In this document: positions 24,504 to 44,229 of the stretch, in pieces
How positions within the stretch are numbered: position 1 is the first letter of the stretch
How the letters are laid out: each line of letters starts with the position of its first letter
DNA from: Halobaculum litoreum
GTDB taxonomy: Archaea; Halobacteriota; Halobacteria; Halobacteriales; Haloferacaceae
NCBI RefSeq assembly: GCF_030127125.1
Contig: NZ_CP126156.1
Coordinates: forward strand, 1,922,001-1,986,000
Length of the DNA stretch: 64,000 nt
Reading direction: 5' to 3'
Notes under the pieces: generated by a model
What the model was told of the DNA's origin: nothing
The model's database searches: none
What the model saw: only the letters and a program-made list of their open reading frames with translations
Translations under genes and position numbers: made by a program

Positions 24504-25493
24504 TTACTCGCTGCCGGGGCGCCCGCCGTCGGTGTGGACGGGGTCGCGCGGCAGGTCCAGCGACTCCAGCAGGTCGTACTCCTCCTTCGTGACCATGTAG
24601 AGGACGTCCTCGATGACGGTGACGAGTTCGGGGAGTTGGCGCACTACGAGGTAGGTGATGCCGACGAGCGCGACGACCGCCAGCACCTGTGAGATCACCC
24701 GGTCCGAGAGGAAGAACGACACCATGTACGGGTCCGACGACCCGAACAGGAACAGCACCTCGTCGACGAACAGCTGGAGGTACTGGTTGCCGAAGGTGAT
24801 CCCGATGAACGTCGTACGCAGCACGTTCAACAGCCAGATGATCGGGATGGAGACCGCGAGCCCGCGGAGCTTCCGCCCCAAGGGCGCCCGGACCGCGGCG
24901 ATCAGCCCGACGAAGATCGCCATGCTGCCGAGGCCGGTGCACGCGAGGACGATCTCGAACAGGAGCCGGTGTCCCTCCGGCGTCGTGAACACGTACGCGT
25001 TCTGGTAGCCGAGGATCGGCCCCTCGGTCAGCGCCGGCTCGTAGCCGAACCGCGCCATCAGCCAGCCGGTCTGCCCGGTGACGACGAGGATGAGGGTGCG
25101 CTTGAGCGGCTCGACCGTCTCGAACGGGAAGTAGACGACACCCATCGCGGCGACCGCCCGCGAGAGGACGTACAGCGAGTCGCGCCCGCCCCACAGCAGC
25201 CAGCCGGCGTACAGACACGCCGGCACCGCCGCCAGCGAGAGCACCCCCTCGACGTAGCTCTGCTGGGTGAACGCGAAGTGCGGGAACAGGAGGAGCCAGA
25301 ACAGCGCGAACAGCCCCCAGCCGGCGACCGCGAGGACGCGCTCGGGCGCGACCGCCGGCCCGTCCAGCCGACGACCGACCGCCGCGAGGCGCCCGTCGGC
25401 GCCGCGGCGCCGGTGGAGGTACTCGACGCCGGCGGCCGCGAGGAACGTCGCGATCACCACCCACCCCAGCAGGTCGGTGTAGATGCTCGCCAT
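24504..25493 (-). CDS. artA: Archaeosortase A
   Basis: A 329-residue membrane transpeptidase-like enzyme that recognises PGF-CTERM tails, removes the C-terminal helix and links surface proteins to lipid. Seven or eight helices. The catalytic residues are present: Cys185 in LACTGLGSMA, Arg226 in NVLRTTFIG and Arg265 in SDRVISQ. Their spacing (41 and 39) equals that of the residues I recall for Haloferax volcanii ArtA (C173, R214, R253). The gene lies downstream of, and on the same strand as, the S-layer glycoprotein, and 17 kb from PGF-CTERM protein BtuF. Both are expected substrates. Confidence 0.95.
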   Translation of the reverse strand: MASIYTDLLGWVVIATFLAAAGVEYLHRRRGADGRLAAVGRRLDGPAVAPERVLAVAGWGLFALFWLLLFPHFAFTQQSYVEGVLSLAAVPACLYAGWLLWGGRDSLYVLSRAVAAMGVVYFPFETVEPLKRTLILVVTGQTGWLMARFGYEPALTEGPILGYQNAYVFTTPEGHRLLFEIVLACTGLGSMAIFVGLIAAVRAPLGRKLRGLAVSIPIIWLLNVLRTTFIGITFGNQYLQLFVDEVLFLFGSSDPYMVSFFLSDRVISQVLAVVALVGITYLVVRQLPELVTVIEDVLYMVTKEEYDLLESLDLPRDPVHTDGGRPGSE

Positions 25494-25708: not shown

Positions 25709-28700
25709 TTAGTTGTCGCGACGGACTGCCAGCAGCGCAGCGCCGATCAGGGCGATGACTGCGAGGACAGCGCCGAAGCCGGGCGTCGACGTGGAGGTCT
25801 CCGTGGGCTCCTCGGTGGTTTCCATGGGCTCCGTCGTCTCAGCCGGCGGCTCGGTCGTCTCCTCCGGCGGCTCCGTCGTCTCCGGCGGCTCCGTCGTCTC
25901 CTCCGGCGGCTCCGTCGTCTCCGGCGGCTCCGTCGTCGTGCCAGTGGAGTCGACAATGACGCCGTCCTCACTCAGCGTGAAGGCGGCCTGGCGAACACTC
26001 GCGGTGAACTCGTCACCGGTCGACTGCTCGCTCAGGTCGAACGAAGCGTTGAACGTGCCGTCCGCCTGGACGGTCACGGTCTGGGAGTTGAAGAACCGCG
26101 GCTGCGTGTCGCCGGTCGACTGCACACGCACGGTGAACTCGGTCCCGGGCGCGACGTTCGTCGTACCCGTGATCTGCGCGTCCTCGGAGGCCGTCGTGGC
26201 CACGAGGTCGTCGTCGTTCAGGTCGAAGCTACCCTCGGCCTCCTCGACCGAGAAGTTCGCCGACGTCGTCAGGTACGCCTCGTCCTGCTCGTCCTCGGTG
26301 AGGTCGTCATCGAGGCCCAGCAGACGGTCGTCCTGCGCGGAGATGTCGACGTCGATGTCGTCACCAGCCTCGAACGGACCGTCCGTCACGGCCGCGCTCG
26401 GGATCTGGTCGTACTCGACGAAGATGTAGTACGTGCCCTGGCCGTCGTAGATGACGGTCAGCGCGTTCTCAACGCCCGTGTTGCTGTTAAGCGCGTCAGC
26501 AAGGTCGAGCGTGGCGGGATCCTGGTTCGCACCCGGATCCTGCTCGGTGAACACGGCGTTGATCTTGGCGTCACCGAACGTGTTGTTCTCCTGCACCGCG
26601 GCAGCGAACTCAGCCGTCACGTCACCGGACTCGGCGTTGTTGCCGAGGATGCCGGTCACGGACGCGGCGGAGAGCTGGTGAACCAGCACGTCGCTGTTGG
26701 TCCCGTCGGGGTCGACAGCGAGCGTGTCGGTCTGCGTGACCTGCTCGTTCTCGACGGCGCTGACGATGGCCGCAGCGCGGTCCTCGTCGTCAGCGTCCTC
26801 GACGTCCTCCAGGACGGCGCCACTCGTGCGCCAGAGAACCTGGTTGGGCGCCTCGGGCTCCGTCAGCACGAGCGTGCCGACGTTGTCCGGGCTGTCGAGG
26901 GTGTTCGAAGCGTTCGAGGTACTCACGGAGACGATGTAGTCACCGGAGTCGAGCAGGTTGGTCAGGTTGGTCTGGTCGTCCTGCTCGTCGAAGGTGAGGC
27001 TGTCCTCGCCCGCACTGTCGCCAGCGAGCGCGACAGGCGAACCCAGCGAGCCGTTACCGGCGCGGTAGGTGTTGAAGGCGACGGTGACCTCACCGTCGTC
27101 GTCGTCGTCGACGATGGAGACGTTCGCCTGGTAACCGTCCTCAGCCTCGTCACCGATGACGAGCGTGCCCGAGGTCGCAGCGTCGCTCAGCTCAACCGTG
27201 ATGAGCGCGACGCCACCCTGGGTGACGGTCGTGGTGCTGTTCTGGAGGTCGAGTTCACCCTCACCAACGTCGTTGACCGTGATCGACGCGTCAGCCTCGG
27301 CGTCGGTGTCGGTCACCGAGAAGGTGAAGTTGTACTCGCCACCATCGATGTCGGCGAAGTCGGTCAGGAGCTCCTGCTCACCGTTGTCGACGGTGAGCTC
27401 GACACCGTCCTCGTCGTCGGTCTCGCCGTCGGCGTCGACGTCAGCGTCGAAGGCGCCGAACTCGGAGAAGATCTGGACGAGTTCCTCGTCGTCGAGGTCG
27501 TCGGACTCAACGGTGACGTTGAAGTCGCTCTGGCGGTTCGTGGAGGCGAGTTCGAGGTCGACCTCGGTCTCGCCCGTGTTGTCGACGGTGTCCTCGGCGA
27601 AGTCAGCCGAGAAGTCCATCGCGCGGAGCGTGAACCGGATGTCCGCGTTGGACGGGGTAGTCGGTTCGTTGTTGTTCGAGATGTAGTACGTCGTGCCAGT
27701 GTCGAGGCCGGACGTACTGACGTTGACGAACCCGTTGCTATCAACGCTCAGGGAGCGAACCGGCGTACCCGTATCCGAGTCTTCGCGCTCGAAGAGCTGG
27801 TATCCGCCGTCGGCGGAGTTATCGTCAGCGTCGGCAGCGTCGTAGGAGGCCGTTTGGCCAACGAAGACGATGCCGCCGTTGTCGAAGTTCGTGTCGTCAC
27901 CCGAGGGGTTCGGGGAGCCGGCGTCCGACGCGATCGCGAAGGAGCCGGTCTGCTGGTCGCTCGAACCCGGCGCGTTGCCGTTCGAGGAGTCGAAGTCGCT
28001 GCTGGGCGAGGAACCGACCGTCGCAGCGTAGTCGTAGGTGAGGCTGGACGCCTCGCTCGCACTACCAGCGTTGACGCCGGTGATGCTCGCGGTGTCGACA
28101 GTGACGATACCGTCGTCGTCACCGTCGGTAACGCTGAAGTAGAACACCGTCACGCCACTGTTGGACGAGAAGGTGCTCGTGGAGCCGGCCGAGTCCGCAG
28201 TGTCGGTAACGGAGACCGTACCGGCGCTCAGACCGCCCTCGTCGACACCCTCGTCGGTGAGCGAGGTGACGTTGAAGTAGACGAAGGCCTGGTCGTTGCC
28301 ACCGGTCCGGACTTCCAGGTCGTTGCTGCTACCGAGCAGCTGCGTCTGGCCGTCCGTCCGGTTGATGTCGTCCACGCTGATGGCCGTCCCGTCGGTCGGG
28401 TTGACCAGGTCGAACGACACGGAGCCACTGCCACTACCAGTGCCACCCGCCGCGATCGGGAAGGAAACGCCCGACGATGCGGTGACACCAGTCGTGTCGT
28501 GACTGTAGACAACCTCAACCTCAACCTCAGTCGAGCTGCCGGTGTCGGCGCCCGCAAGGTTGACAGTGTGAGTTCCGGAGGAAATCCCGCCGTCAGAGGC
28601 GGTGATACCGGAGCCGCCGTCGTCAGCCACGCTGACCGACGAGACGGACGGAGTCACACCAGCGCTAGCAGCGCTGGAGAGGTCAATCGTGACCGACTCC

Positions 28701-28909
28701 GAAGCAGTACTTCCGTCTACAGTCACGTTGAACGATACTGTCTGTGTCGCCGAGCCTTGCCCGACGACGACGTCATCGGCACTATTGCCGGTAACGCCTG
28801 AAACAGCCGCAGCCGCTGTCCCGGTGAACGCGACGGTGCCCGCGAAGACGGAGAACACCATCAGCGCCGCCAGGATCAGGGCGCGGATCTTGTCGTTATA
28901 GTCTGTCAT
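25709..28909 (-). CDS. csg: S-layer glycoprotein (major cell surface glycoprotein), PGF-CTERM
   Basis: A 1066-residue acidic surface protein forming the cell envelope lattice. The start is ATG 28909, giving the haloarchaeal S-layer signal MTDYNDKIRALILAALMVFSVFAGTVAFTGTAAA. The longer frame upstream would run through the leader. The body is rich in Asp, Thr and Ser, with many N-x-S/T sequons (for example NTTV, NGSL, NKT-type sites) for N-glycosylation. It ends with a Thr/Glu/Pro stalk (25784-25936) and PGFGAVLAVIALIGAALLAVRRDN for ArtA. A TATA about 140 bases upstream and a long leader fit known csg genes. The neighbouring sugar genes may supply its glycans. Confidence 0.95.
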   Translation of the reverse strand: MTDYNDKIRALILAALMVFSVFAGTVAFTGTAAAAVSGVTGNSADDVVVGQGSATQTVSFNVTVDGSTASESVTIDLSSAASAGVTPSVSSVSVADDGGSGITASDGGISSGTHTVNLAGADTGSSTEVEVEVVYSHDTTGVTASSGVSFPIAAGGTGSGSGSVSFDLVNPTDGTAISVDDINRTDGQTQLLGSSNDLEVRTGGNDQAFVYFNVTSLTDEGVDEGGLSAGTVSVTDTADSAGSTSTFSSNSGVTVFYFSVTDGDDDGIVTVDTASITGVNAGSASEASSLTYDYAATVGSSPSSDFDSSNGNAPGSSDQQTGSFAIASDAGSPNPSGDDTNFDNGGIVFVGQTASYDAADADDNSADGGYQLFEREDSDTGTPVRSLSVDSNGFVNVSTSGLDTGTTYYISNNNEPTTPSNADIRFTLRAMDFSADFAEDTVDNTGETEVDLELASTNRQSDFNVTVESDDLDDEELVQIFSEFGAFDADVDADGETDDEDGVELTVDNGEQELLTDFADIDGGEYNFTFSVTDTDAEADASITVNDVGEGELDLQNSTTTVTQGGVALITVELSDAATSGTLVIGDEAEDGYQANVSIVDDDDDGEVTVAFNTYRAGNGSLGSPVALAGDSAGEDSLTFDEQDDQTNLTNLLDSGDYIVSVSTSNASNTLDSPDNVGTLVLTEPEAPNQVLWRTSGAVLEDVEDADDEDRAAAIVSAVENEQVTQTDTLAVDPDGTNSDVLVHQLSAASVTGILGNNAESGDVTAEFAAAVQENNTFGDAKINAVFTEQDPGANQDPATLDLADALNSNTGVENALTVIYDGQGTYYIFVEYDQIPSAAVTDGPFEAGDDIDVDISAQDDRLLGLDDDLTEDEQDEAYLTTSANFSVEEAEGSFDLNDDDLVATTASEDAQITGTTNVAPGTEFTVRVQSTGDTQPRFFNSQTVTVQADGTFNASFDLSEQSTGDEFTASVRQAAFTLSEDGVIVDSTGTTTEPPETTEPPEETTEPPETTEPPEETTEPPAETTEPMETTEEPTETSTSTPGFGAVLAVIALIGAALLAVRRDN
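25784..25936 (-). repeat. Tandem repeats coding the Thr/Glu/Pro stalk of the S-layer protein
   Basis: Imperfect tandem repeats of codons for TTEPPE and TTEPPEE units (about 50 residues), just before the PGF-CTERM signal. Thr-rich stalks of this kind carry O-linked sugars in other haloarchaea. The DNA repeats make it a likely site of length variation. Confidence 0.8.
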
Positions 28910-29054
28910 GGTTTGTCTGAGTCGCACTGCAAGCGGCGACGACACCGTTCTCCCGAGCCTGCTCCAGAACGCCCGCGAGGCGGACTCGGCGAGGGGTACT
29001 TGCTGCTGTCACCATGGGTAGGGGTACAACGGGTACCAACAGCGGTGCTTATAA
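28910..29054 (-). promoter_or_regulatory. S-layer gene promoter and long 5' leader
   Basis: On the minus strand TTATAA at 29049-29054 (within CATTTATAAGCACC) is a strong TATA box. Initiation about 25 bases downstream, near 29024, leaves a leader of roughly 115 bases before the ATG at 28909. This resembles the long leader I recall for haloarchaeal csg transcripts. The leader contains two GGGTAC-containing repeats near 29015-29037. Confidence 0.6.
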
Positions 29055-34887: not shown

Positions 34888-36027
34888 ATGACCGATATAC
34901 CGCTCTTCGAAATCAATTGGGATCGGGAGGATATCCTCAATGTAGTTGACTCGGTCGGCCGAGGGAGCCACTGGGCGAAGGGGCCGTACGTCGACGAGTT
35001 CGAGTCCCGACTCGAATCGTACCTCGGAGTGGAACACGCCTTGGTAGTCAACTCGGGGACGACCGCGCTGGTCGCTGCGCTCGAGGGCGCCGGCATCGGC
35101 GAGGGTGACGAGGTCATCGTCCCCGCGTTCACGTTCATCGCGACCGCGAACGCCGTCCGACTGGTCGGCGCCGAGCCGGTGTTCGCGGACATAGAGACCG
35201 AGACGTACGGACTGGACCCCGACGACGTGCGCAATCGGATCAGCGAGGACACGGCGGCGGTCTTGCCCGTCCACTGCTACGGGACGAGTTGCCGAATCTC
35301 GGCGCTCAACGACGTCGCCGACGAGCACGACCTCGTGGTGATCGAGGACGCCGCGGAGGCACTCGGCGCCACCCACCGCGGTCAGCATCTCGGAACGCTC
35401 GGCGATGTCGGCGCGCTGAGTTTCTGTCAGAACAAGATCATCAGCACGGGCGAGGGCGGCGCGGTCGTCACCGACGACGACGATATCGCGGAAACTGTCC
35501 GGCTGTATCGGTCGCACGGCCGAGCCTCCGCGAACTACTTCGACAGCGCCGACAGCGGAGAGTACGTCTCCGTCGGGACGAACATTCGAATGGCCGACAT
35601 CAACGCTGCCCTCGGCTGTGCGCAACTTGATCGGATAGACGATATCATCGAGAGGCGTCGCGCAGCAGCGACACGGATGTCGGAGGCGTTTGCGGACGTT
35701 GAAGGAGTGGAGCCGCACAAGCCAGCAGTTGACAACACCCACGTGTACCAACTGTTCACCGTGACTTTGGACCCCCTTATAGACCGCTCGGCCGTCGTCG
35801 AGGGGTTGGCTGACCGGAAGGTCGCATCGAAGGTCTACTGGGACCCCGCCGTCCACCGGACCGAGGTGTACGACGGCGACAGCACGCCTGACCTCCCGGT
35901 GACGGAGGACGTGGCCGGGCGAGTGCTCTCGTTGCCGATCCACCCCGACCTCTCGAGCGAGGAGACGACACGTATCGTCGACGCGGTGGCGGCCACCGTC
36001 GGCGAGGCGTGGGAGACGGGTCCGTAA
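34888..36027 (+). CDS. legC: DegT/DnrJ/EryC1 family sugar aminotransferase (LegC-like)
   Basis: A 379-residue PLP-dependent aminotransferase, expected to put an amine at C4 of the UDP-4-keto-6-deoxy sugar made by the next gene. Landmarks are VVNSGTTALVAALEGAGIGEGDEVIVPAFTFIATANAV, VHCYGTSC, Asp154 in VIEDAAEALG (binds the PLP nitrogen) and the aldimine Lys183 in SFCQNKIISTGEGG. It heads a same-strand run with 4,6-dehydratase, CMP-sugar synthetase and 2-epimerase, which places it in nonulosonic acid synthesis. The exact sugar (legionaminic or a related acid) is inferred from the neighbours. Confidence 0.88.
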   Translation: MTDIPLFEINWDREDILNVVDSVGRGSHWAKGPYVDEFESRLESYLGVEHALVVNSGTTALVAALEGAGIGEGDEVIVPAFTFIATANAVRLVGAEPVFADIETETYGLDPDDVRNRISEDTAAVLPVHCYGTSCRISALNDVADEHDLVVIEDAAEALGATHRGQHLGTLGDVGALSFCQNKIISTGEGGAVVTDDDDIAETVRLYRSHGRASANYFDSADSGEYVSVGTNIRMADINAALGCAQLDRIDDIIERRRAAATRMSEAFADVEGVEPHKPAVDNTHVYQLFTVTLDPLIDRSAVVEGLADRKVASKVYWDPAVHRTEVYDGDSTPDLPVTEDVAGRVLSLPIHPDLSSEETTRIVDAVAATVGEAWETGP

Positions 36028-36030
36028 CGG

Positions 36031-36040
36031 TTTACATACT
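36031..36040 (+). promoter_or_regulatory. TATA-like element before legB
   Basis: TTTACATACT ends 19 bases before the ATG at 36060, inside the 32-base gap after legC. It could give an internal, leaderless promoter. Confidence 0.35.
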
Positions 36041-36059
36041 ACTGCGGCAATCAGATTGC

Positions 36060-37079
36060 ATGACCTCTTTGGAGGGCAAGCAGGTTCTCGTCACGGGAGG
36101 TGCCGGGTCGATCGGATCGGCCCTTGTCGACGAGATCGTCGCCCGGGACCCCGCCGTCGTTCGTATCTTCGATGCCAACGAGGAAGCGTTGTTCGAGTTG
36201 CAGGAGAAGTACAGCGACCGCGACAACGTCCGCTACCTGCTCGGGAACGTACGCGACAAGTCTCGACTGCAATTAGCGATGGAGAACGTCGACGTCGTGT
36301 TCCACGTCGCGGCGCTCAAACACGTCACGCTCAACGAGTACAACCCGTTCGAGACGGTCCAGACGAATGTGATCGGGACGCAGAACGCGATTCAGGCGGC
36401 GCTTGAGGAAGAAGTCGAGTCGTTTGTCGCCGTCAGTACCGACAAGGCGTCGAACCCTACGTCCGTCATGGGTGCGACGAAACTGCTATCCGAGCGACTG
36501 GTGACGGCGGCGAACACGTACAAAGGGGACCGCGACACCCGGTTCGGCTGTGTCCGGTTCGGCAACGTCCTCGCGTCCAGCGGTTCCGTCGTCCCGCTGT
36601 TTAAAGAGCAGATCCGCGACGGCGGTCCGGTGACGGTCACCGACCCCGAGATGACTCGGTTCATCATGCCGATCACCGAGGCCGTCCACCTGATGCTCGA
36701 GGCGCACCGCCGACTCACCAGCGGGGAGGTGTTCGTGCTGAAGATGCCCGCGTTTCGCGTGGGGACGCTCGCGGACGCGATGATCGACGCGTACGCCGCG
36801 GACGCCGGCTACGACCCCGAAGAGATCGACCAGGAGATCATCGGTGCCCGCCCGGGAGAGCGCGTCCACGAGAAGCTCATCTCCGTCGACGAGAGCGCTC
36901 AAGCCCGTGAGTTGGACAACATGTACGCGATCCTCCCGGAGATCGACTCCCCCGGCTACCGCGCCGTCAACTACGACGACGCCGACCCCGTCGACGGCGA
37001 GTACACCTCTGCCGACGCGACCCTCCTCGACGAGGAAGAACTGATCGACCTCATCGAGTCCGACGAGAGGTTCGCGTAG
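36060..37079 (+). CDS. legB: UDP-GlcNAc 4,6-dehydratase-type SDR enzyme (LegB/PglF-like)
   Basis: A 339-residue short-chain dehydrogenase of the CapD/polysaccharide-biosynthesis group. NAD-binding VLVTGGAGSIGSALV at residues 9-23; HVAALKHV; catalytic STDK at 126-129 in VAVSTDKASNPTSVMGATK. Asp128 and Lys129 are followed nine residues later by Met137. In the C5-inverting PseB/FlaA1 enzymes this place is Tyr, and in the retaining PglF type it is Met (from memory). That favours a bacillosamine/legionaminic-type intermediate over a pseudaminic one. ATG 36060 is used; it lies one base before the next gene at its 3' end. Confidence 0.88.
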   Translation: MTSLEGKQVLVTGGAGSIGSALVDEIVARDPAVVRIFDANEEALFELQEKYSDRDNVRYLLGNVRDKSRLQLAMENVDVVFHVAALKHVTLNEYNPFETVQTNVIGTQNAIQAALEEEVESFVAVSTDKASNPTSVMGATKLLSERLVTAANTYKGDRDTRFGCVRFGNVLASSGSVVPLFKEQIRDGGPVTVTDPEMTRFIMPITEAVHLMLEAHRRLTSGEVFVLKMPAFRVGTLADAMIDAYAADAGYDPEEIDQEIIGARPGERVHEKLISVDESAQARELDNMYAILPEIDSPGYRAVNYDDADPVDGEYTSADATLLDEEELIDLIESDERFA

Positions 37080-37080
37080 G

Positions 37081-37779
37081 ATGAGTGAGCGGACGCTCGC
37101 CGTCGTCCCCGCACGCGGGGGGTCGAAACGCGTCCCGCGAAAGAACCTCCAGGACGTGGGGGGGCGTCCGATGATCGCGCACGCCATCGAAGACGCACGT
37201 GAGGCCGCCCGCGTCCATAGGTGCATCGTCTCCACGGACGACGCCGAGATCGCCGATGTGGCCCGTGAACACGGCGGCGACGTGCCGTTCACACGGCCCG
37301 CCGAGTTGGCCTCGGACACGGCGTCGATCGCCGACACGATCACACACGCCCTCGAGTGGTTGGCCGACGAAGCCGGCGAACAGTACGACGTGGTCTGTCT
37401 CGTCCAGCCCACGTCCCCACTTCGAGCGGCCGCAGATGTCGATGGTGCGCTCGAGCGGCTCGCCGACTCGGGCGCGGAGTCGGTCGTCTCGGTCTCGAAG
37501 TACGTGACTCCACCCCAGTGGGCAGTCACCGCCGACGAAGACGGATTCCTCTCGGAGACGTTCGACACCGGCGCGCTCTGGAGCGGGTCCCCCGAGCGAA
37601 GCCAAGACCTGCCCGAGCAACTCCACCCGAACGGAGCCGTGTTCGCAGCGACCATCGACGCGTGGCACGAGTACGAGGGGTTCTACACGGACCGAACGGT
37701 CGGCTTCGAGATGCCCCCCGAGCGGTCTTTCGACGTGGACGAGCCGTGGGAACTCGAATTCGTGCGTGCCCTCCTGTGA
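37081..37779 (+). CDS. legF: CMP-nonulosonate (CMP-sialic acid type) cytidylyltransferase
   Basis: A 232-residue acylneuraminate cytidylyltransferase (NeuA/LegF/PseF family) that activates the nine-carbon acid as CMP-sugar. N-terminal LAVVPARGGSKRVPRKNLQDVGGRPMI carries the family CTP loop (ARGGSKxxxxKN). VCLVQPTSPLR and the C-terminal ERSFDVDEPWELEFVRALL (metal-binding DVD...) are also typical. It starts one base after the legB stop, so the two are co-translated. Confidence 0.93.
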   Translation: MSERTLAVVPARGGSKRVPRKNLQDVGGRPMIAHAIEDAREAARVHRCIVSTDDAEIADVAREHGGDVPFTRPAELASDTASIADTITHALEWLADEAGEQYDVVCLVQPTSPLRAAADVDGALERLADSGAESVVSVSKYVTPPQWAVTADEDGFLSETFDTGALWSGSPERSQDLPEQLHPNGAVFAATIDAWHEYEGFYTDRTVGFEMPPERSFDVDEPWELEFVRALL

Positions 37780-37930: not shown

Positions 37931-39094
37931 ATGAACGGCGACGCACGTCGGATCCTCGTGCTGACCGGCACCAGAGCCGAGTACGGGCTGTTGAAGTCCT
38001 CGATGGAGGAGATTCGGGCGGCCGAGGGGCTTGAACTGCAGGTCGTCGCGACCGGGATGCACCTCTCTCCCCGACACGGCATGACCGTCGAGGACATCAG
38101 AGACGACGGCTTCACCGTCGACCGGGAGGTGTTGATGCAGATGGACGGCGACACCGGCAAGTCCATGGCGACCTCGCTGGGGGTCGGAACCACGGGTCTC
38201 GCGGAGGCGTTCGACAGCCTCGACCCGGACGTCGTGTTGCTCCTCGGCGACCGCGACGAGGCGCTCGCCGGGGCGCTCGCCGCCGCGCACATGAACGTCC
38301 CAGTCGCCCACGTTCACGGTGGCGACTCGATGCACGGGGCCGTCATCGACGACAGCATCCGCCACGCGATCACCAAGTTCGCGCACATCCACTTCTCCGC
38401 CTCGGGACGGAGTGCAGGACGGATCGAGCGACTCGGCGAGGAGCCGTGGCGGATCACCACGGTTGGGGCACCCGGTCTCGACGACGTCCTCGCGGAGGAG
38501 TACGAGCCACCAGAACGCGTGGTAGACCGCCACGGGATCGACCCGGCGGAACCGCTCGTGCTGGTCGTCCAACACCCCGTGACGACACAGCAAGCGCGTG
38601 CCGGCGAGCAGATGGCACAGACGTTGGACGCCGTCGAGTCGGTCGAGGCGCAGACGGTCGTCATCTACCCCAACTCCGACGCCGGTGGGGACCAGATGAT
38701 CGACGAGATCGAGTCGCGAACCAGCGGCGAGGGCCGGTGGACGTTCCGGAGTCTCCCGCGGGGGGAGTACCTCGGACTCATGGCGGCCGCGGACGCGATG
38801 GTGGGGAACTCGTCCAGCGGGATCATCGAGTCGCCGTCCTTCGGTCTCCCGGTCGTCGACGTCGGCCCGCGCCAAGAGGGGCGCGAACGCGCCGACAACA
38901 CCGTCTCGGTGCCGCACGACACCGACGCCATCGCCGACGCGCTCGGGCGGTGCCTCGACGACGAGGCCTTCCGGGAGCGGGCCGAGTCGTGCGAGAATCC
39001 GTACGACTACGGGGGCGCCGGTGTACGGATCCGCGAGCGACTCCTCGAGGTCGAACTCGGCGAGTCGCTGATCAGGAAGCGACTCACGTACTGA
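37931..39094 (+). CDS. neuC: Hydrolyzing UDP-GlcNAc 2-epimerase type enzyme (NeuC/LegG)
   Basis: A 387-residue enzyme that releases UDP while epimerising C2, giving the free mannosamine-type precursor for the synthase. Start RRILVLTGTRAEYGLLKSSMEEI, then GMHLSPRHGMTVEDI, VVLLLGDRDEALAGALAAAHMNVPVAHVHGGD, and MVGNSSSGIIESPSFGLPVVDVGPRQEGRERADN. These are the NeuC-family motifs of the GT-B fold. In this context the substrate is probably UDP-2,4-diamino-6-deoxy sugar (LegG role) rather than UDP-GlcNAc. It begins 151 bases after legF. Confidence 0.93.
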   Translation: MNGDARRILVLTGTRAEYGLLKSSMEEIRAAEGLELQVVATGMHLSPRHGMTVEDIRDDGFTVDREVLMQMDGDTGKSMATSLGVGTTGLAEAFDSLDPDVVLLLGDRDEALAGALAAAHMNVPVAHVHGGDSMHGAVIDDSIRHAITKFAHIHFSASGRSAGRIERLGEEPWRITTVGAPGLDDVLAEEYEPPERVVDRHGIDPAEPLVLVVQHPVTTQQARAGEQMAQTLDAVESVEAQTVVIYPNSDAGGDQMIDEIESRTSGEGRWTFRSLPRGEYLGLMAAADAMVGNSSSGIIESPSFGLPVVDVGPRQEGRERADNTVSVPHDTDAIADALGRCLDDEAFRERAESCENPYDYGGAGVRIRERLLEVELGESLIRKRLTY

Positions 39095-39135
39095 CGACCA
39101 CAACTGCTATCAGCGGGGTCGCTCTCCCACCGACA

Positions 39136-40080
39136 ATGCGCGTCGTATTTATCACCCACAACGAGGTCGGCCAGGCGTGCCTCGAGGAACTCGTCGAGTT
39201 GGGCGCCGACGTCCGCGGTGTGTACACCAGACCCGAGCGGACGGGGATCGTGGACCAAGTGGATCTCGACGGCTTCGCCGAACAGCACGGGATCCCGCTC
39301 GAACGGGTGGACACGGTGAACACCGACGAAGTGAAGGCGCAGATCGCTGCGCAACAGCCGGATCTGTTGTTCGCCGTCGGCTGGTCGAGGCTCGTCGACA
39401 GGGAGGTCGTCGACCTCGCGGACACCGCGGCGCTCGGGATGCACCCCGCACCCCTGCCTCGTGGTCGTGGCCGGGCGCCGCTCGCCTGGTCGATCATCAA
39501 GGGACTCGACGAGACTGCACTGAGCATGTTCCACCTCGTCGAGGAAGCCGACGCCGGAGATCTCGTCGGACAACGGCCGATCCCGATCGACGACGCCGAC
39601 GACGCGACGTCGCTGTACGAGAAGGTCGTCGACGCCGCCCGACGCCTGATCCGCCGCTACTACCCGATGTTCGAAGCCGGAGACGTCCCCCGAACACCAC
39701 AAGAAGACGCGGAAGCGACGTGGTGGCCCAAGCGCGAACCACACCACGGCCTGATCGACTGGACCCGGCCGCCGCGTGAGGTGTACGACTGGATTCGCGG
39801 GCAGACCCGCCCGTACCCCGGTGCCTACTCTCGACTGGACGGTCGACGGGTGACCGTGTGGGCGGCGAACCCGCCGGCGGAGACGACGGCGTTCGTAAAG
39901 CCCGGTGAAGTCGTCTACCGCGACGGCGACGCGCTCGGCGTCGGCGCTTGGGAGGGGGTCGTCGAACTCACCGAGGTCCAGGTGGCCGACGACGAACCGA
40001 TCCCCGCCGGCGCACTCGTCGACCGCTACGGTGTCGACCTAGGGGACACGTTCGAGAACGCACGGGACCTGCTCGGGTGA
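39136..40080 (+). CDS. Sugar N-formyltransferase (methionyl-tRNA formyltransferase-like)
   Basis: A 314-residue formyltransferase. The N-terminal domain (1-170) and a C-terminal domain with WTRPPREVYDWIRGQTRPYPGAYSRLDGRRV match the Fmt/ArnA-type fold using N10-formyl-tetrahydrofolate. Active site: His103 in GMHPAPLPRGRGRAP and Asp139 in EADAGD, spaced 36 as in Fmt. The catalytic Asn two residues before the His is Gly101. Placed between neuC and a NeuD-type gene, it most likely formylates an amine of the nonulosonic acid or its precursor, not initiator tRNA. Gap to neuC is 41 bases. Confidence 0.85.
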   Translation: MRVVFITHNEVGQACLEELVELGADVRGVYTRPERTGIVDQVDLDGFAEQHGIPLERVDTVNTDEVKAQIAAQQPDLLFAVGWSRLVDREVVDLADTAALGMHPAPLPRGRGRAPLAWSIIKGLDETALSMFHLVEEADAGDLVGQRPIPIDDADDATSLYEKVVDAARRLIRRYYPMFEAGDVPRTPQEDAEATWWPKREPHHGLIDWTRPPREVYDWIRGQTRPYPGAYSRLDGRRVTVWAANPPAETTAFVKPGEVVYRDGDALGVGAWEGVVELTEVQVADDEPIPAGALVDRYGVDLGDTFENARDLLG

Positions 40081-40085
40081 CACGG

Positions 40086-40712
40086 ATGCGAGCCATCTAC
40101 TGCGCTGGCGAGCAGGGACGAGTCGTCCTCGACATCCTCCGTGCGGGCGGCGACGCCGGCGACGTCGTGTTCGTCGACGACGACGAGTCCCGACACGGGA
40201 CGGACGTCGACGGTGTCGAGGTGATCGGTGGATTCGACGCCCTGGCAGACCGTGCAGACGACGATGTGCGGAGTCTGGTCGCGTTCGGCGACAGCCAGCG
40301 CGTTCGCCTGACGATCGCAGAACGAGTCGCGGACGTCGGCGTCGGCTTCTTCTCTGCCATCCACCCCGATGCGACCATCTCGACGGCGGTCTCGCTAAGC
40401 GACGGGGTGACCGTGAACGCCAACTCGTACCTCGGCGTCGGAGTCGAGGTCGGCGACCACGCACTCGTGGACAGTTCCGTGAACGTGTCCCACGACTCGG
40501 TGATCGGAATGGGGGCGACGCTCACCCCTGGGTGTACCCTCGCAGGCGGCGTCACCGTCGAGTCGGACGCGTACGTCGGGCCGGGGTCGACGGTCGTGGA
40601 GGACGCGACGGTCGGTGCTGGGGCCGTCGTCGGCGCTGGGGCGGTCGTGACCGACGACGTCGAACCGGGGAGGACCGTGGTCGGCGTCCCGGCGGAGCCG
40701 ATCGACCGGTAG
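40086..40712 (+). CDS. NeuD-family sugar acyltransferase
   Basis: A 208-residue protein with an N-terminal Rossmann-like nucleotide-sugar binding part (RAIYCAGEQGRVVLDILRAGG...VVFVDDDESRHGTDVDGVEVIGG) and a C-terminal left-handed beta-helix (ALVDSSVNVSHDSVIGMGATLTPGCTLAGGVTVESDAYVGPGSTVV). This is the NeuD/PglD/LegH layout. The probable role is N-acetylation of the 4-amino group after LegC, or O-acetylation of the final acid. The catalytic His of the family is seen in NVSHDS. Five bases after the formyltransferase. Confidence 0.9.
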   Translation: MRAIYCAGEQGRVVLDILRAGGDAGDVVFVDDDESRHGTDVDGVEVIGGFDALADRADDDVRSLVAFGDSQRVRLTIAERVADVGVGFFSAIHPDATISTAVSLSDGVTVNANSYLGVGVEVGDHALVDSSVNVSHDSVIGMGATLTPGCTLAGGVTVESDAYVGPGSTVVEDATVGAGAVVGAGAVVTDDVEPGRTVVGVPAEPIDR

Positions 40713-40729: not shown

Positions 40730-41398
40730 CTACCGGTACATGCGGAGCACCTCGAACGCCTCCGCAGCCGCCGCACCGCAGTCGGTCCCGCGTGATCGGG
40801 CGATCGATTCGAGCGCCTCCGCCGATCGAGGGTGTGGGTACGCGCGCGTCTCCGACTCGTACGCCTGGAACGCCTCAATCTTCGTCTCGACGTGCCCCGT
40901 GATGTCCACGAACAGCGACGGTGCGAAGCCGTCGCCGCCGGGCGTCCAGTTCGTCGAGGACGGCGTCTCGTACGCCAACACCGTCGACACGCCCGACCCG
41001 GGTCGTGTCGCGACGAGCGTCGAGTCGTGGACTGCGACGTGATCCCGGTTCACCTCGCGACGAGCGTGGGTGTACACGACGTCGGGTGAGACCTCCTCGC
41101 AGACGCCCTCTATCACCGCGTTGACCTCCACGTGCGCGACGTCATCGAGTCGCATGTCGGGGAGGTCCCCGAAGTGGACTCGCTCGGCCCCGAGGCGGTC
41201 GGCGCACGTCCGAGCGTGTTCGCGCTTCTGCTCGATCAGGTCTCGGTCGTCGTACTGGTGCGTCGTCCCCTCAGTGACGATGAGCGCGTGGACGTCGTCG
41301 CCGGCGGCGGCGTGTTTCGCTATCGCGCCGCCAGCACCGAGGACCTCGTCGTCTGGGTGCGCGCCGACGACGAGTACGACGTCGTCTCCGTCGAACAT
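40730..41398 (-). CDS. PIG-L (LmbE-like) zinc N-deacetylase
   Basis: A 222-residue zinc deacetylase of the PIG-L/LmbE family, which removes N-acetyl groups from sugars. ATG 41398 gives the canonical start DDVVLVVGAHPDDEVLGAGGAIAKHAAAGD, with AHPDDE metal motif, followed by VTEGTTHQYD and a later His-containing YTHARREVNRDHVAVHD. The longer upstream frame overlaps neuB and is rejected. Its ATG overlaps the neuB stop by one base (TGATG), so it is translated with the synthase gene. With the formyltransferase on the opposite strand it could exchange acetyl for formyl. Confidence 0.93.
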   Translation of the reverse strand: MFDGDDVVLVVGAHPDDEVLGAGGAIAKHAAAGDDVHALIVTEGTTHQYDDRDLIEQKREHARTCADRLGAERVHFGDLPDMRLDDVAHVEVNAVIEGVCEEVSPDVVYTHARREVNRDHVAVHDSTLVATRPGSGVSTVLAYETPSSTNWTPGGDGFAPSLFVDITGHVETKIEAFQAYESETRAYPHPRSAEALESIARSRGTDCGAAAAEAFEVLRMYR

Positions 41399-42462
41399 CA
41401 GCGGTCCCCCGTGGTCGGATCGACTGCCAGATCTGCCGCCGAGATCGGGTCGTCCGAAGCGATGGCTCTCGTCGTCTCGGTGCCGACCACCGCGTCGAAC
41501 CACCGCGGCGAGAGTCCCTCAGACGGCCGGAGGATCCGGATGTGGTCGGCTTCGAGGGTGGTCCCGGCGGGGATGTCGGTCGCGGCGTGGAGGCTCTTTC
41601 TGGACGAGACGAGCGTGTCTCGCTCTGCGTCGGTTGGCCGTTTCTCGTCGGTCCCACGGGTCCGCCACGCGGTCTCCGCCAACTCGACCGCCGAGGCGAG
41701 TTCGTCGGGTTCGAGCGACGCCTCGTGGTCGGGACCGGGCAGCGACCGGTCGAGCGTGAAGTGTTTCTCGAGAATCGTCGCTCCCGCCGCGACGGCGAAC
41801 GCGGGCGTCTCTACCAGTGTCGTGTGGTCGGAGTAGCCGACCAGGTCCGGGAGTTCGGCGTCCATCGTCGCCATCGCGCGGAGGTTCACGTCGTCGATGG
41901 AGCAAGGGTACGACGACGTGCAGTGGAGGAACGCCAAGTCGAGATCGGTCGACACGGACCGGATCGTCTCCCGCGCCGCGTGGACCTCGTCCATCGTTCC
42001 CATCCCCGTGCTCACGATCATCGGAACACCAAGAGTGGCGACGTGCTCGATTAGCGGGTAGTTGTCGAGTTCGCCGGAGCCGAGTTTGATCGCCGGGACG
42101 CCCAGGTCGACCAGCATCGACGCGCTCTCCGCGTCGAACGGTGTCGAGAGGAACGTGATGTCGTTGGCGGCACAGTGGTCCATCAACTGCTCATGGGCCC
42201 CCTCATCGAGTTCGTACCGACGGAGGAGGTCGTACTGGGTCCCCTCACCCGTGGTTTCTGTCTGGTATGATGGCTTGGCCGCTTGCTTAGTCACCAGCCG
42301 GTCAGCGCTGAAAGTCTGAAACTTCACAGCGTCGGCGCCAGCATCCGCGGCCGCCTCGACAAGCGATTTTGCTCGAGACAGGTCGCCGTTGTGGTTGACC
42401 CCTGCCTCCGCGATGAAGTACGGCGGGTGGGAGGGACCGATGTCGCGACCGTTGATCTGCAT
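41398..42462 (-). CDS. neuB: N-acetylneuraminate/legionaminate synthase family protein (NeuB/LegI)
   Basis: A 354-residue synthase that condenses phosphoenolpyruvate with a mannosamine-type sugar to form the nine-carbon acid. The start is ATG 42462 ([49 protein letters not shown]); a TATA lies 23-31 bases upstream, so the longer frame is rejected. NeuB barrel motifs: LSTPFDAESASMLVDLGVPAIKLGSGELDNYPLI, STGMGTMDEV, HCTSSYPC, GYSDHT, EKHFTLDRSLPGPDH. C-terminal SAF (antifreeze-like) domain from about residue 285. Which acid it makes is inferred from the pathway. Confidence 0.94.
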   Translation of the reverse strand: MQINGRDIGPSHPPYFIAEAGVNHNGDLSRAKSLVEAAADAGADAVKFQTFSADRLVTKQAAKPSYQTETTGEGTQYDLLRRYELDEGAHEQLMDHCAANDITFLSTPFDAESASMLVDLGVPAIKLGSGELDNYPLIEHVATLGVPMIVSTGMGTMDEVHAARETIRSVSTDLDLAFLHCTSSYPCSIDDVNLRAMATMDAELPDLVGYSDHTTLVETPAFAVAAGATILEKHFTLDRSLPGPDHEASLEPDELASAVELAETAWRTRGTDEKRPTDAERDTLVSSRKSLHAATDIPAGTTLEADHIRILRPSEGLSPRWFDAVVGTETTRAIASDDPISAADLAVDPTTGDR

Positions 42463-42791
42463 GCGACTCGATTGGATCGGCCCCGATATATGTCTGACCT
42501 TCACTGGGGCCGGCAGGAGCCTGATACCGTTTCCCTCCACCGAGACGATCGGCACCGGACGAAACGCGGTTGGGTCAGACGTCGCGTCCGACGATTCCAG
42601 CTGAACAGACCGAGTCCGAAGGTCGTCCGTCGGTCGACCTGTCGAGCGATCCCGGATCCCGAAGGGGAGAGCAACCGGTCAGTTTCCACTCGATCTGGTG
42701 TGCCGGGATTCACCACGCGAGGTCAGTGGGGCCTGTCCATCGTCGGGAGCACCGATAGCAGTCCCGAGCCGGGCGCTCACACGGTGGGTGC
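42463..42791. other. Intergenic region between the glycosyltransferase-like gene and neuB
   Basis: 329-base gap, both flanking genes on the minus strand. The neuB TATA (42485-42493) lies at one end. The rest shows lower GC than the core genome and no frame with recognisable protein segments. Confidence 0.4.
42485..42493 (-). promoter_or_regulatory. TATA element of neuB
   Basis: Minus-strand ACATATATC lies 23-31 bases before the ATG at 42462. The spacing predicts a leaderless transcript for neuB and the deacetylase. Confidence 0.55.
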
Positions 42792-44189
42792 CTACTCTCC
42801 CGTTCGGAGCCGATCGATGACCGCACACACGTTTTCGGCCGCTCCCGGCTCGAAATAGTACTCCCGGTCGAACGGTTCGGTTTCCTCACCCAGCGAGGAC
42901 ACCAGTTCGTCGGCGGAGGAGACCATCCGAGCGGCGCCGTTCTGTGCGAGCGGCGCCAGCGCCTCGGACCCAGGACGGTCGTAGATATAGGTCTCGAGAT
43001 CGAACGCCAGTCCCTCGAACACAGCCGTCGATCCGACCCCGACCTGGGCGGCCGACTCGGCGAACAACGAGTATAGTTGCGGCTCGGAGCTGTCGATCAC
43101 CTCCAGATCGGCGTCGGCCAACCATGGGTACTCTTCGGTCCACCGCTCGTACTCTCCCGGGTGGAGTTTGTACACGACGTCGTAGCCCATGTCGGGATGG
43201 GACGCGACCTCGACCGCGAGCCTGGAGAGGTCTTCGCCGATCGTCCCCTGTGAGATGAATAGGATCTGGTTCGTCGACGCACCCGTCTCGTACTCCCGTA
43301 TTGCCTCCTCCAGATACGGATAGCCGACCGATATCACGTGGTCGTCCGGGATCGGGTACTCGATCCCCTGACTCCAGTAGTCGCCGAACGTGAGAACGTA
43401 GTCTGGGAAGACGCGTTTCGTTCGGGAACCCCTGTACGAGTACCCGAAGTGATGGTCGAAGATGAGACCGTGTTGGAGTTCAGCCACCGGGATCGACTCT
43501 CGCTGGCACGCCTCGATGAACGTGTCTCGGAAGTAGCTAACCACGACGACAACCAGTTCAGGTTCGATCCGTCGGAGCAATCTGCGGTAGAGCCCGAGTG
43601 TCGTTCGACGTGTGTGTAGCGCTTCGTTCGCCATCGAAACCAGATCGACAGTCGCGCCGAACTGGTCATGAAGGTCGCTCCCGGCTGCCTCGAGTTTCGC
43701 TCGTTCGGCTGCCTCGATCCTCGGTTCACGGACACCGAGTGATCGTTGAAGCGCCCCCCCGAACTCGATCAGATCGAGGTATTTGAGACCCGATGTGGGT
43801 GTTGGCCCGAAGTGGGTGAGGAGATGTGGTCGTTCCAAGTGGATGTACTCGTGGTCACAGGCTCGGTGTATCGGATCGCAGTAGATGTCCCACCACAGCC
43901 CATCCGCTCGCTTCTTTCGTCGCTGATGGCCCAAGTACAGCACGTCGGCCTCGTCGCTAAGAAACGGATTCCTCCGGAAGACGTTTTTCACCAGGAGTTC
44001 TCCGACACGGAGATAGTTCCGGGGAGTCCTCTCGATGCCGGTGTGCGCCTGGCCCGACCCGTGCTCCTGCTCGATCTTTCGAAACACGTTGAATCGAAGG
44101 CGCTCCCAGATGGGGACATCGTCAATGACGATATCGAAGAGATCGTGTTGTAGTTCGAACGATTCGAACTCCGATGCCAGCGAACTCAT
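42792..44189 (-). CDS. Putative glycosyltransferase of the capsule/polysialyltransferase-like type
   Basis: A 465-residue protein I cannot place firmly. The second half resembles GT-B transferases that use CMP-sugars or build capsule: AELQHGLIFDHHFGYSYRG, YVLTFGDYWSQ, ILFISQGTIGEDLSRLAVEVA, VVYKLHPGEYERW and VGVGSTAVFEGLAFDLETYIYD. These are the HP-type and S/T-x-E signatures of KpsS, polysialyl- and CDP-glycerol transferases. The N-terminal 120 residues are rich in charged and aromatic residues (WERLRFNVFRKIEQEHG). No membrane segment or signal is seen. GC is visibly lower than nearby. Beside a CMP-nonulosonate pathway, it is the best candidate to transfer that sugar. Confidence 0.6.
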   Translation of the reverse strand: MSSLASEFESFELQHDLFDIVIDDVPIWERLRFNVFRKIEQEHGSGQAHTGIERTPRNYLRVGELLVKNVFRRNPFLSDEADVLYLGHQRRKKRADGLWWDIYCDPIHRACDHEYIHLERPHLLTHFGPTPTSGLKYLDLIEFGGALQRSLGVREPRIEAAERAKLEAAGSDLHDQFGATVDLVSMANEALHTRRTTLGLYRRLLRRIEPELVVVVVSYFRDTFIEACQRESIPVAELQHGLIFDHHFGYSYRGSRTKRVFPDYVLTFGDYWSQGIEYPIPDDHVISVGYPYLEEAIREYETGASTNQILFISQGTIGEDLSRLAVEVASHPDMGYDVVYKLHPGEYERWTEEYPWLADADLEVIDSSEPQLYSLFAESAAQVGVGSTAVFEGLAFDLETYIYDRPGSEALAPLAQNGAARMVSSADELVSSLGEETEPFDREYYFEPGAAENVCAVIDRLRTGE

Positions 44190-44220: not shown

Positions 44221-44229
44221 ACATATACC
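44221..44229 (-). promoter_or_regulatory. TATA element of the glycosyltransferase-like gene
   Basis: Minus-strand GGTATATGT lies 32-40 bases before the ATG at 44189. Confidence 0.4.

Follow-up and report, generated by a model that had tools for sequence, protein, structure and literature searches.

Introduction

The closest described archaeal system is that of Halorubrum sp. PV6, in which 5-N-formyl-legionaminic acid has been detected on the S-layer glycoprotein, where it ends the N-glycan as a single residue (PMC6137143). The authors of that work discuss a formyltransferase alone, without a PIG-L enzyme, and name no transferase for the nonulosonate, stating it to be unidentified (PMC6137143). 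In Tannerella forsythia, knockouts of GtfS and TFUB4_00887 are reported to lose terminal pseudaminic or legionaminic acid (PMC6388019, PMC6120980). GtfS comprises 445 aa and is encoded in a nonulosonate cluster, and its knockout lacks terminal Pse, with mass-spectrometric support (PMC6120980, PMC6388019). While these enzymes and the bacterial Maf proteins have support, no archaeal transferase for sialic-type acids was found in the literature searched. Moreover, B. subtilis SpsB, a TagB-like neighbour of the leg pathway, is dispensable for Leg transfer (PMC7439481), a warning against guilt by association for transferases that adjoin leg genes.

Here, we describe P0001 (42792-44189, minus strand), a candidate CMP-nonulosonate glycosyltransferase of 465 aa, in a 64,000-nucleotide stretch of the Halobaculum litoreum genome (NZ_CP126156.1, positions 1,922,001 to 1,986,000), referred to below as the window. 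A sequence-only reading had regarded its product as an orphan protein and as a possible new archaeal transferase family for sialic-type acids. On the basis of its open reading frame, AlphaFold (AF2) model, structural matches to GT-B enzymes, and linkage to the nonulosonate synthase NeuB, it is highly probable that P0001 is a soluble two-domain GT-B glycosyltransferase using a CMP-activated nonulosonic acid as donor, and it is very probably the enzyme that attaches the sialic-acid-like sugar to surface glycans.

Genomic Context of P0001

The interval 42792-44189 corresponds exactly to an intact frame of 465 codons from ATG to stop, which codon statistics select as the coding frame, and no rival coding-like ORF was found there by ORF and codon statistics. 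A TATA-like element read from the sequence 34-38 nt upstream of the ATG (44223-44227, minus strand) may provide the gene with a promoter of its own. The host chromosome is haloarchaeal, in a genome of 3.04 Mb on two contigs, and the GC content of P0001 (59.7%) is lower than that of the window (70.8%), in keeping with the low GC noticed earlier, within a region from about 26 to 46 kb whose GC lies below most of its flanks. This low GC and the patchy distribution of the family suggest a glycosylation island exchanged between genomes. An origin as a phage or plasmid gene was rejected, since no relatives of the family were found on viral contigs or phages and none of P0001 on plasmids; the single exception, for a Bacillota member, is a partial 25% match to an Ensifer megaplasmid.

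The next gene on the same strand encodes a NeuB/LegI-type nonulosonate synthase (41398-42462), identified by PF03102 (281 bits, E 1.3e-83) and a SAF domain, so that the claimed adjacency to neuB holds. Its ORF opens at 42555, but the gene probably starts at 42462, which leaves about 330 bp between it and the end of P0001. Since TATA-like elements stand shortly upstream of NeuB as well as of P0001, the two genes are neighbours rather than a proven operon, and separate transcription is equally likely. The minus strand also carries a PIG-L family de-N-acetylase (40730-41503, PF02585 E 1.3e-26), whose true start is probably downstream of 41503.

On the plus strand, the cluster begins at 34.9 kb with a LegC/PseC-type aminotransferase (34888-36027, PF01041 E 9e-116; TIGR03588 and TIGR04181 below cut-off), followed by a LegB/PseB-type 4,6-dehydratase (36009-37079, PF02719 E 8e-103), a LegF/NeuA-type CMP-nonulosonate synthetase (37081-37779, PF02348; TIGR03584 below cut-off), a LegG/NeuC-type hydrolysing 2-epimerase (37931-39094, TIGR03568, 401 bits over cut-off), a formyltransferase with Formyl_trans_N/C domains (39100-40080, start approximate; PF00551, PF02911), and a NeuD-type acyltransferase (39948-40712, TIGR03570 above cut-off), the ORF start of which is probably too early. 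A GlmS-type amidotransferase/isomerase and a GlmU-type nucleotidyltransferase lie to the left. The gene order and set match those of the leg genes HrrPV6_1046-1053 of Halorubrum sp. PV6, including the formyltransferase, NeuD, and GlmS (PMC6137143). However, PV6 has aglB inside the same island, whereas no AglB was found in the window and the sole STT3/AglB-type match of the Halobaculum litoreum genome (C1:1278579-1279367) is about 0.65 Mb away. Among the ORFs scanned, no second recognisable glycosyltransferase was found in the window.

A large low-arginine protein with DUF7827 and PGF-CTERM (25709-28945) is a candidate S-layer glycoprotein beside the sugar cluster, and an exosortase/archaeosortase-like gene (24504-25493) adjoins it. 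In addition, the formyltransferase and the PIG-L de-N-acetylase co-occur in the window and in loci L040, L043, L051, L052, and L060, a pair that could replace an N-acetyl group by the N-formyl group found in 5-N-formyl-legionaminic acid.

Predicted Fold and Conserved Motifs

The GT-B fold, on which the sequence-only reading had staked its proposal, is indeed predicted: the model obtained from a deep alignment (mean pLDDT 94.2, pTM 0.92) contains two Rossmann-like domains of alternating strands and helices, and Foldseek matches it in the PDB to UDP-GlcNAc 2-epimerases (top of the list), TagF/TarL, MurG, and the CMP-Kdo-using WaaA, all of them GT-B proteins. E-values of these matches range from 1e-9 to 1e-7 but TM-scores reach only 0.4-0.5, and thus the fold class is firm while the subfamily is not given.

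An alignment of 78 homologues reaching down to about 30% identity contains 12 residues that are invariant in all 78 sequences, namely E237, Q239, Y250, W272, G289, S313, K341, H343, P344, G384, S387, and E392. Both motifs quoted in the earlier reading are found as stated. The first, YKLHPGEYERW (residues 340-350; 43140-43172, minus strand), contains the HP motif of the donor domain, with K341, H343, and P344 invariant and KLHP present in 77 of the 78 rows. The second, VGSTAVFEGLAFD (V385 to D397; 42999-43037, minus strand), is an S/T plus EG motif of the same domain and includes the invariant S387 and E392. The motif cores are not due to chance, since K341, H343, P344, G384, S387, and E392 do not vary. 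A third motif, E237-L-Q-H-G241 (43467-43481, minus strand), ends a strand of the N-domain and is conserved as E-x-QHG in 75 of 78 rows, with H240 nearly invariant; by comparison with GT-B relatives, it is the candidate region of the catalytic base.

The chemistry and residue roles that we infer from these features are as follows. The donor would be bound by its CMP part in the C-terminal domain, where H343-P344 and S387-T388 would lie close to the phosphate and carboxylate, and E392 close to the ribose. In bacterial sialyltransferases, the histidine of the HP motif touches both the phosphate of CMP and the carboxylate of the sialate, and enzymes that lose it have a higher Km for CMP-Neu5Ac (PMC2169525). 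In the N-domain, E237 or H240, located at its inner edge, would serve as the base that activates the acceptor hydroxyl, and the configuration at C2 would be inverted. The reaction would most likely be that of a metal-independent inverting GT-B enzyme, with a nonulosonate-capped glycan as product.

Co-Occurrence with NeuB

NeuB is found in 75 of 391 haloarchaeal genomes, including all 37 that hold a full-length or contig-split P0001 member (36 full-length plus G023, whose gene is split over contigs), versus 38 of the 354 others (Fisher p = 3e-31; p = 1e-10 by genus), and no full-length member was found in the 316 NeuB-negative genomes. Co-occurrence with neuB had been proposed as a check, and in these genomes it is near-exclusive. 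An earlier count on all 39 BLAST matches, fragments included, gave 38 of 39 NeuB-positive (p = 1e-30). A GT4 encoded in the same island as the closest homologue served as control and stays at background: of the 53 genomes with a relative, a few of which may fall outside the NeuB-tested sample, 12 are NeuB-positive (p = 0.46). Moreover, the member lies at most 15 kb from neuB in 34 of the 37 genomes; in the remaining three, it is on a different contig (two genomes) or 38 kb away (one genome).

The linkage to NeuB also holds across phyla with differing other glycan genes. Among the loci of the best 80 of 212 relatives from archaea and bacteria, a set picked without regard to NeuB in which some haloarchaeal species are shared with the 391 genomes, NeuB occurs in 60, and it lies within about 10 kb in 50 of the 58 loci of at least 15 kb. 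There are 22 member/NeuB pairs less than 300 bp apart, some being one species counted in both sets, and 21 of them are on the same strand. As regards the 20 loci without nearby NeuB, Halorubrum cibi (equated with G068) is positive, and of 17 more genomes searched, 10 encode NeuB at another place, in some cases on the same contig, while it was not found in seven Asgard MAGs with a P0001 member, perhaps owing to MAG incompleteness or to use of another donor. All 37 haloarchaeal genomes with a full-length or split member thus fit an occurrence restricted to makers of CMP-nonulosonates, and the exceptions are these seven MAGs and two fragments. The latter, in G158 and G318 (locus L069), are short N-terminal pieces with about 52-54 aa matched, one of them with an internal stop; NeuB was not detected in either genome, as expected of decayed copies after pathway loss.

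Some NeuB ORFs in these loci are long, at about 625-630 aa (L057, 7386-9278; L061, 1126-3003; L062, 14775-16664). The one of L061 carries a xylose-isomerase-like TIM barrel (AP_endonuc_2) C-terminal to the SAF domain, an unusual fusion of a nonulosonate synthase with a possible isomerase or epimerase.

The 38 NeuB-positive haloarchaea without the P0001 family imply that other transferases must exist. A scan of the haloarchaea with the BFO_1060 model matches 18 genomes, 14 of them NeuB-positive and mostly with the match less than 25 kb from neuB; two of these genomes already hold a P0001 member. Five loci (L155-L159, in G357, G065, G172, G323, and G390) from NeuB-positive haloarchaea that lack the P0001 family proper encode a second set of NeuB-linked GT-B proteins of about 470-645 aa, candidates for further nonulosonate transferases. 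In hhalign comparisons, the alignment of these proteins with the P0001 family spans the QHG, HP, and STA motifs for two groups (E 7e-18 and 2e-9) and is only marginal for a third, and thus some NeuB-positive haloarchaea without P0001 appear to use its cousins.

Family Extent and Phylogeny

Single-protein searches with P0001 gave no significant match in Pfam, NCBIfam, or PDB sequences, and profile searches of the PDB returned nothing significant. BLAST finds a match in 39 of the 391 haloarchaeal genomes, and since a profile built on the 78 sequences recovers identical full-length members along with much the same small set of fragments, the family boundary is sharp. Scanning about 85,000 species genomes yields 212 relatives, the best 80 of which belong to haloarchaea, Heimdall-, Thor-, Loki-, and Hodarchaeota, Methanobrevibacter, Bacillota, Spirochaetota, Patescibacteria, and others. 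The description of P0001 as an orphan therefore applies to named families, but not overall, as hundreds of relatives exist; likewise, the family is new in that it has no Pfam or NCBIfam assignment, but it is not archaeal alone.

In a maximum-likelihood tree, P0001 pairs with Natronorubrum sulfidifaciens (100/98), the Heimdallarchaeota form a single clade (100/99), and 12 methanogen sequences from Methanobrevibacter and its relative Methanobinarius form another (100/100). One member, from a Spirochaetes MAG (L144, 10001-12622), combines the family domain with a GT4 glycosyltransferase at its C-terminus.

Proposed Function and Alternative Readings

The donor class rests on genomics, from which a CMP-nonulosonate follows with high likelihood. 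In Halobaculum litoreum, the adjoining leg genes most likely supply this donor as a derivative of CMP-legionaminic acid, possibly an N-formylated one. That P0001 is instead a GT-B transferase for another sugar neighbouring the nonulosonate, for example adding a residue that accepts or extends it, is unlikely. Glycosylation islands do mix many transferases, and neither fold nor motifs fix the donor, given that the Foldseek matches are UDP-, CDP-, and CMP-sugar enzymes alike and that HP and S/T-like motifs are common to CDP-glycerol transferases. However, a transferase of this kind sits poorly with the lack of full-length members in the 316 NeuB-negative haloarchaea, in which respect P0001 differs from the island GT4, indifferent to NeuB, and with a linkage that persists in phyla with different other glycan genes. 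Even less credible, to the point of being highly improbable, is a role in the biosynthesis pathway as a GT-B-fold epimerase or hydrolase. The Foldseek list is headed by UDP-GlcNAc 2-epimerases, but TM-scores of 0.4-0.5 are expected for any GT-B enzyme, there is no sequence similarity to Epimerase_2, the sub-threshold sequence matches are to transferases, and a LegG/NeuC is already present in the cluster; thus, this reading was rejected.

As for acceptor and stage, we slightly favour, by analogy with PV6, the capping of a lipid-linked N-glycan. The lipid-linked oligosaccharide would most likely receive its cap while still facing the cytoplasm, and the capped glycan would then be passed on to S-layer or archaellin protein. 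A CMP-nonulosonate-dependent enzyme that is not a terminal capper but delivers the acid to protein, to an oligo- or poly-nonulosonate, or to a lipid carrier seems a less likely, though plausible, sub-case of the same donor class, so that its probability overlaps with that of the main reading. Bacterial Maf enzymes put Leg/Pse straight onto flagellin (PMC9298399, PMC11339370), and the distant relatives include a polysialyltransferase family (PF07388); by contrast, PV6 glycans end in one 5-N-formyl-legionaminic acid (PMC6137143) and no family member matches the Maf-type Pfam model.

The GT-B fold, the CMP-nonulosonate context, the co-occurrence with NeuB, and the lack of a Pfam or NCBIfam assignment are best read as the proposed new family of transferases for sialic-type acids, with the qualification that it has bacterial members and, in GtfS, an experimentally supported bacterial analogue. 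We consider it probable that P0001 founds a new CMP-nonulosonate glycosyltransferase family, spread over haloarchaea, Asgard, Methanobrevibacter, and several bacterial phyla, that among Archaea, Heimdall- and Thorarchaeota included, it is the first transferase for sialic-type acids, and that NeuB-positive archaea without P0001 rely on other branches of the wider GT-B clan to which it belongs. A defined gene is thereby available for testing across dozens of species of haloarchaea, animal-gut Methanobrevibacter, and Asgard archaea. The family may serve as a marker for predicting whether an archaeon caps its surface glycans with a sialic-type acid, a matter of relevance to virus–host recognition, and it could supply a salt-tolerant enzyme for the synthesis of sialic-acid analogues.

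Comparison with Known Transferase Families

The likeness to KpsS, polysialyl, and CDP-glycerol transferases claimed for the C-terminal half stands in part: some of the 78 members show sub-threshold matches in the donor half to a DUF6716 putative glycosyltransferase, CDP-glycerol transferase, and polysialyltransferase, while P0001 itself has no family match. For the CDP-glycerol transferases (PF04464), two of 78 members match (best E 4e-6), and P0001 has neither a match nor a score at the gathering level; for PF07388, a single member does (E 0.004). P0001 shares with TagF/TarL and TagB/SpsB-like enzymes the Foldseek matches to TagF and TarL and the HP and S/T-like motifs, but it is linked to NeuB instead of a teichoic-type context. 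With the bacterial families GT38, GT52, and GT80, it has in common the HP motif on the donor domain (H343-P344 in all 78 sequences), the GT-B fold (GT80; predicted for GT38), and the expected CMP-nonulosonate donor (PMC2169525). It differs in matching none of their sequence profiles and in lacking the D/E-D/E-G motif, which is present somewhere in only 31 of 78 members, and is therefore not filed under any of the three.

The comparison with Tannerella GtfS takes BFO_1060 to be its orthologue or the same gene, as the name suggests. Similarity to the BFO_1060 family (NF046086) in the donor half appears in 16 of 78 members (best E 1.4e-12), and those examined one by one reach 25-46 bits, far below the curated cut-off of 200 bits; P0001 itself has no match to this model, whereas it shares with GtfS/BFO_1060 the GT-B superfamily, a similar size, and a nonulosonate cluster. 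By sequence, the P0001 family is a distant relative of GT-B proteins of the BFO_1060 and TagB/polysialyltransferase-like types. As a sequence family it is new relative to the catalogues searched, but the kind of enzyme is a known one.
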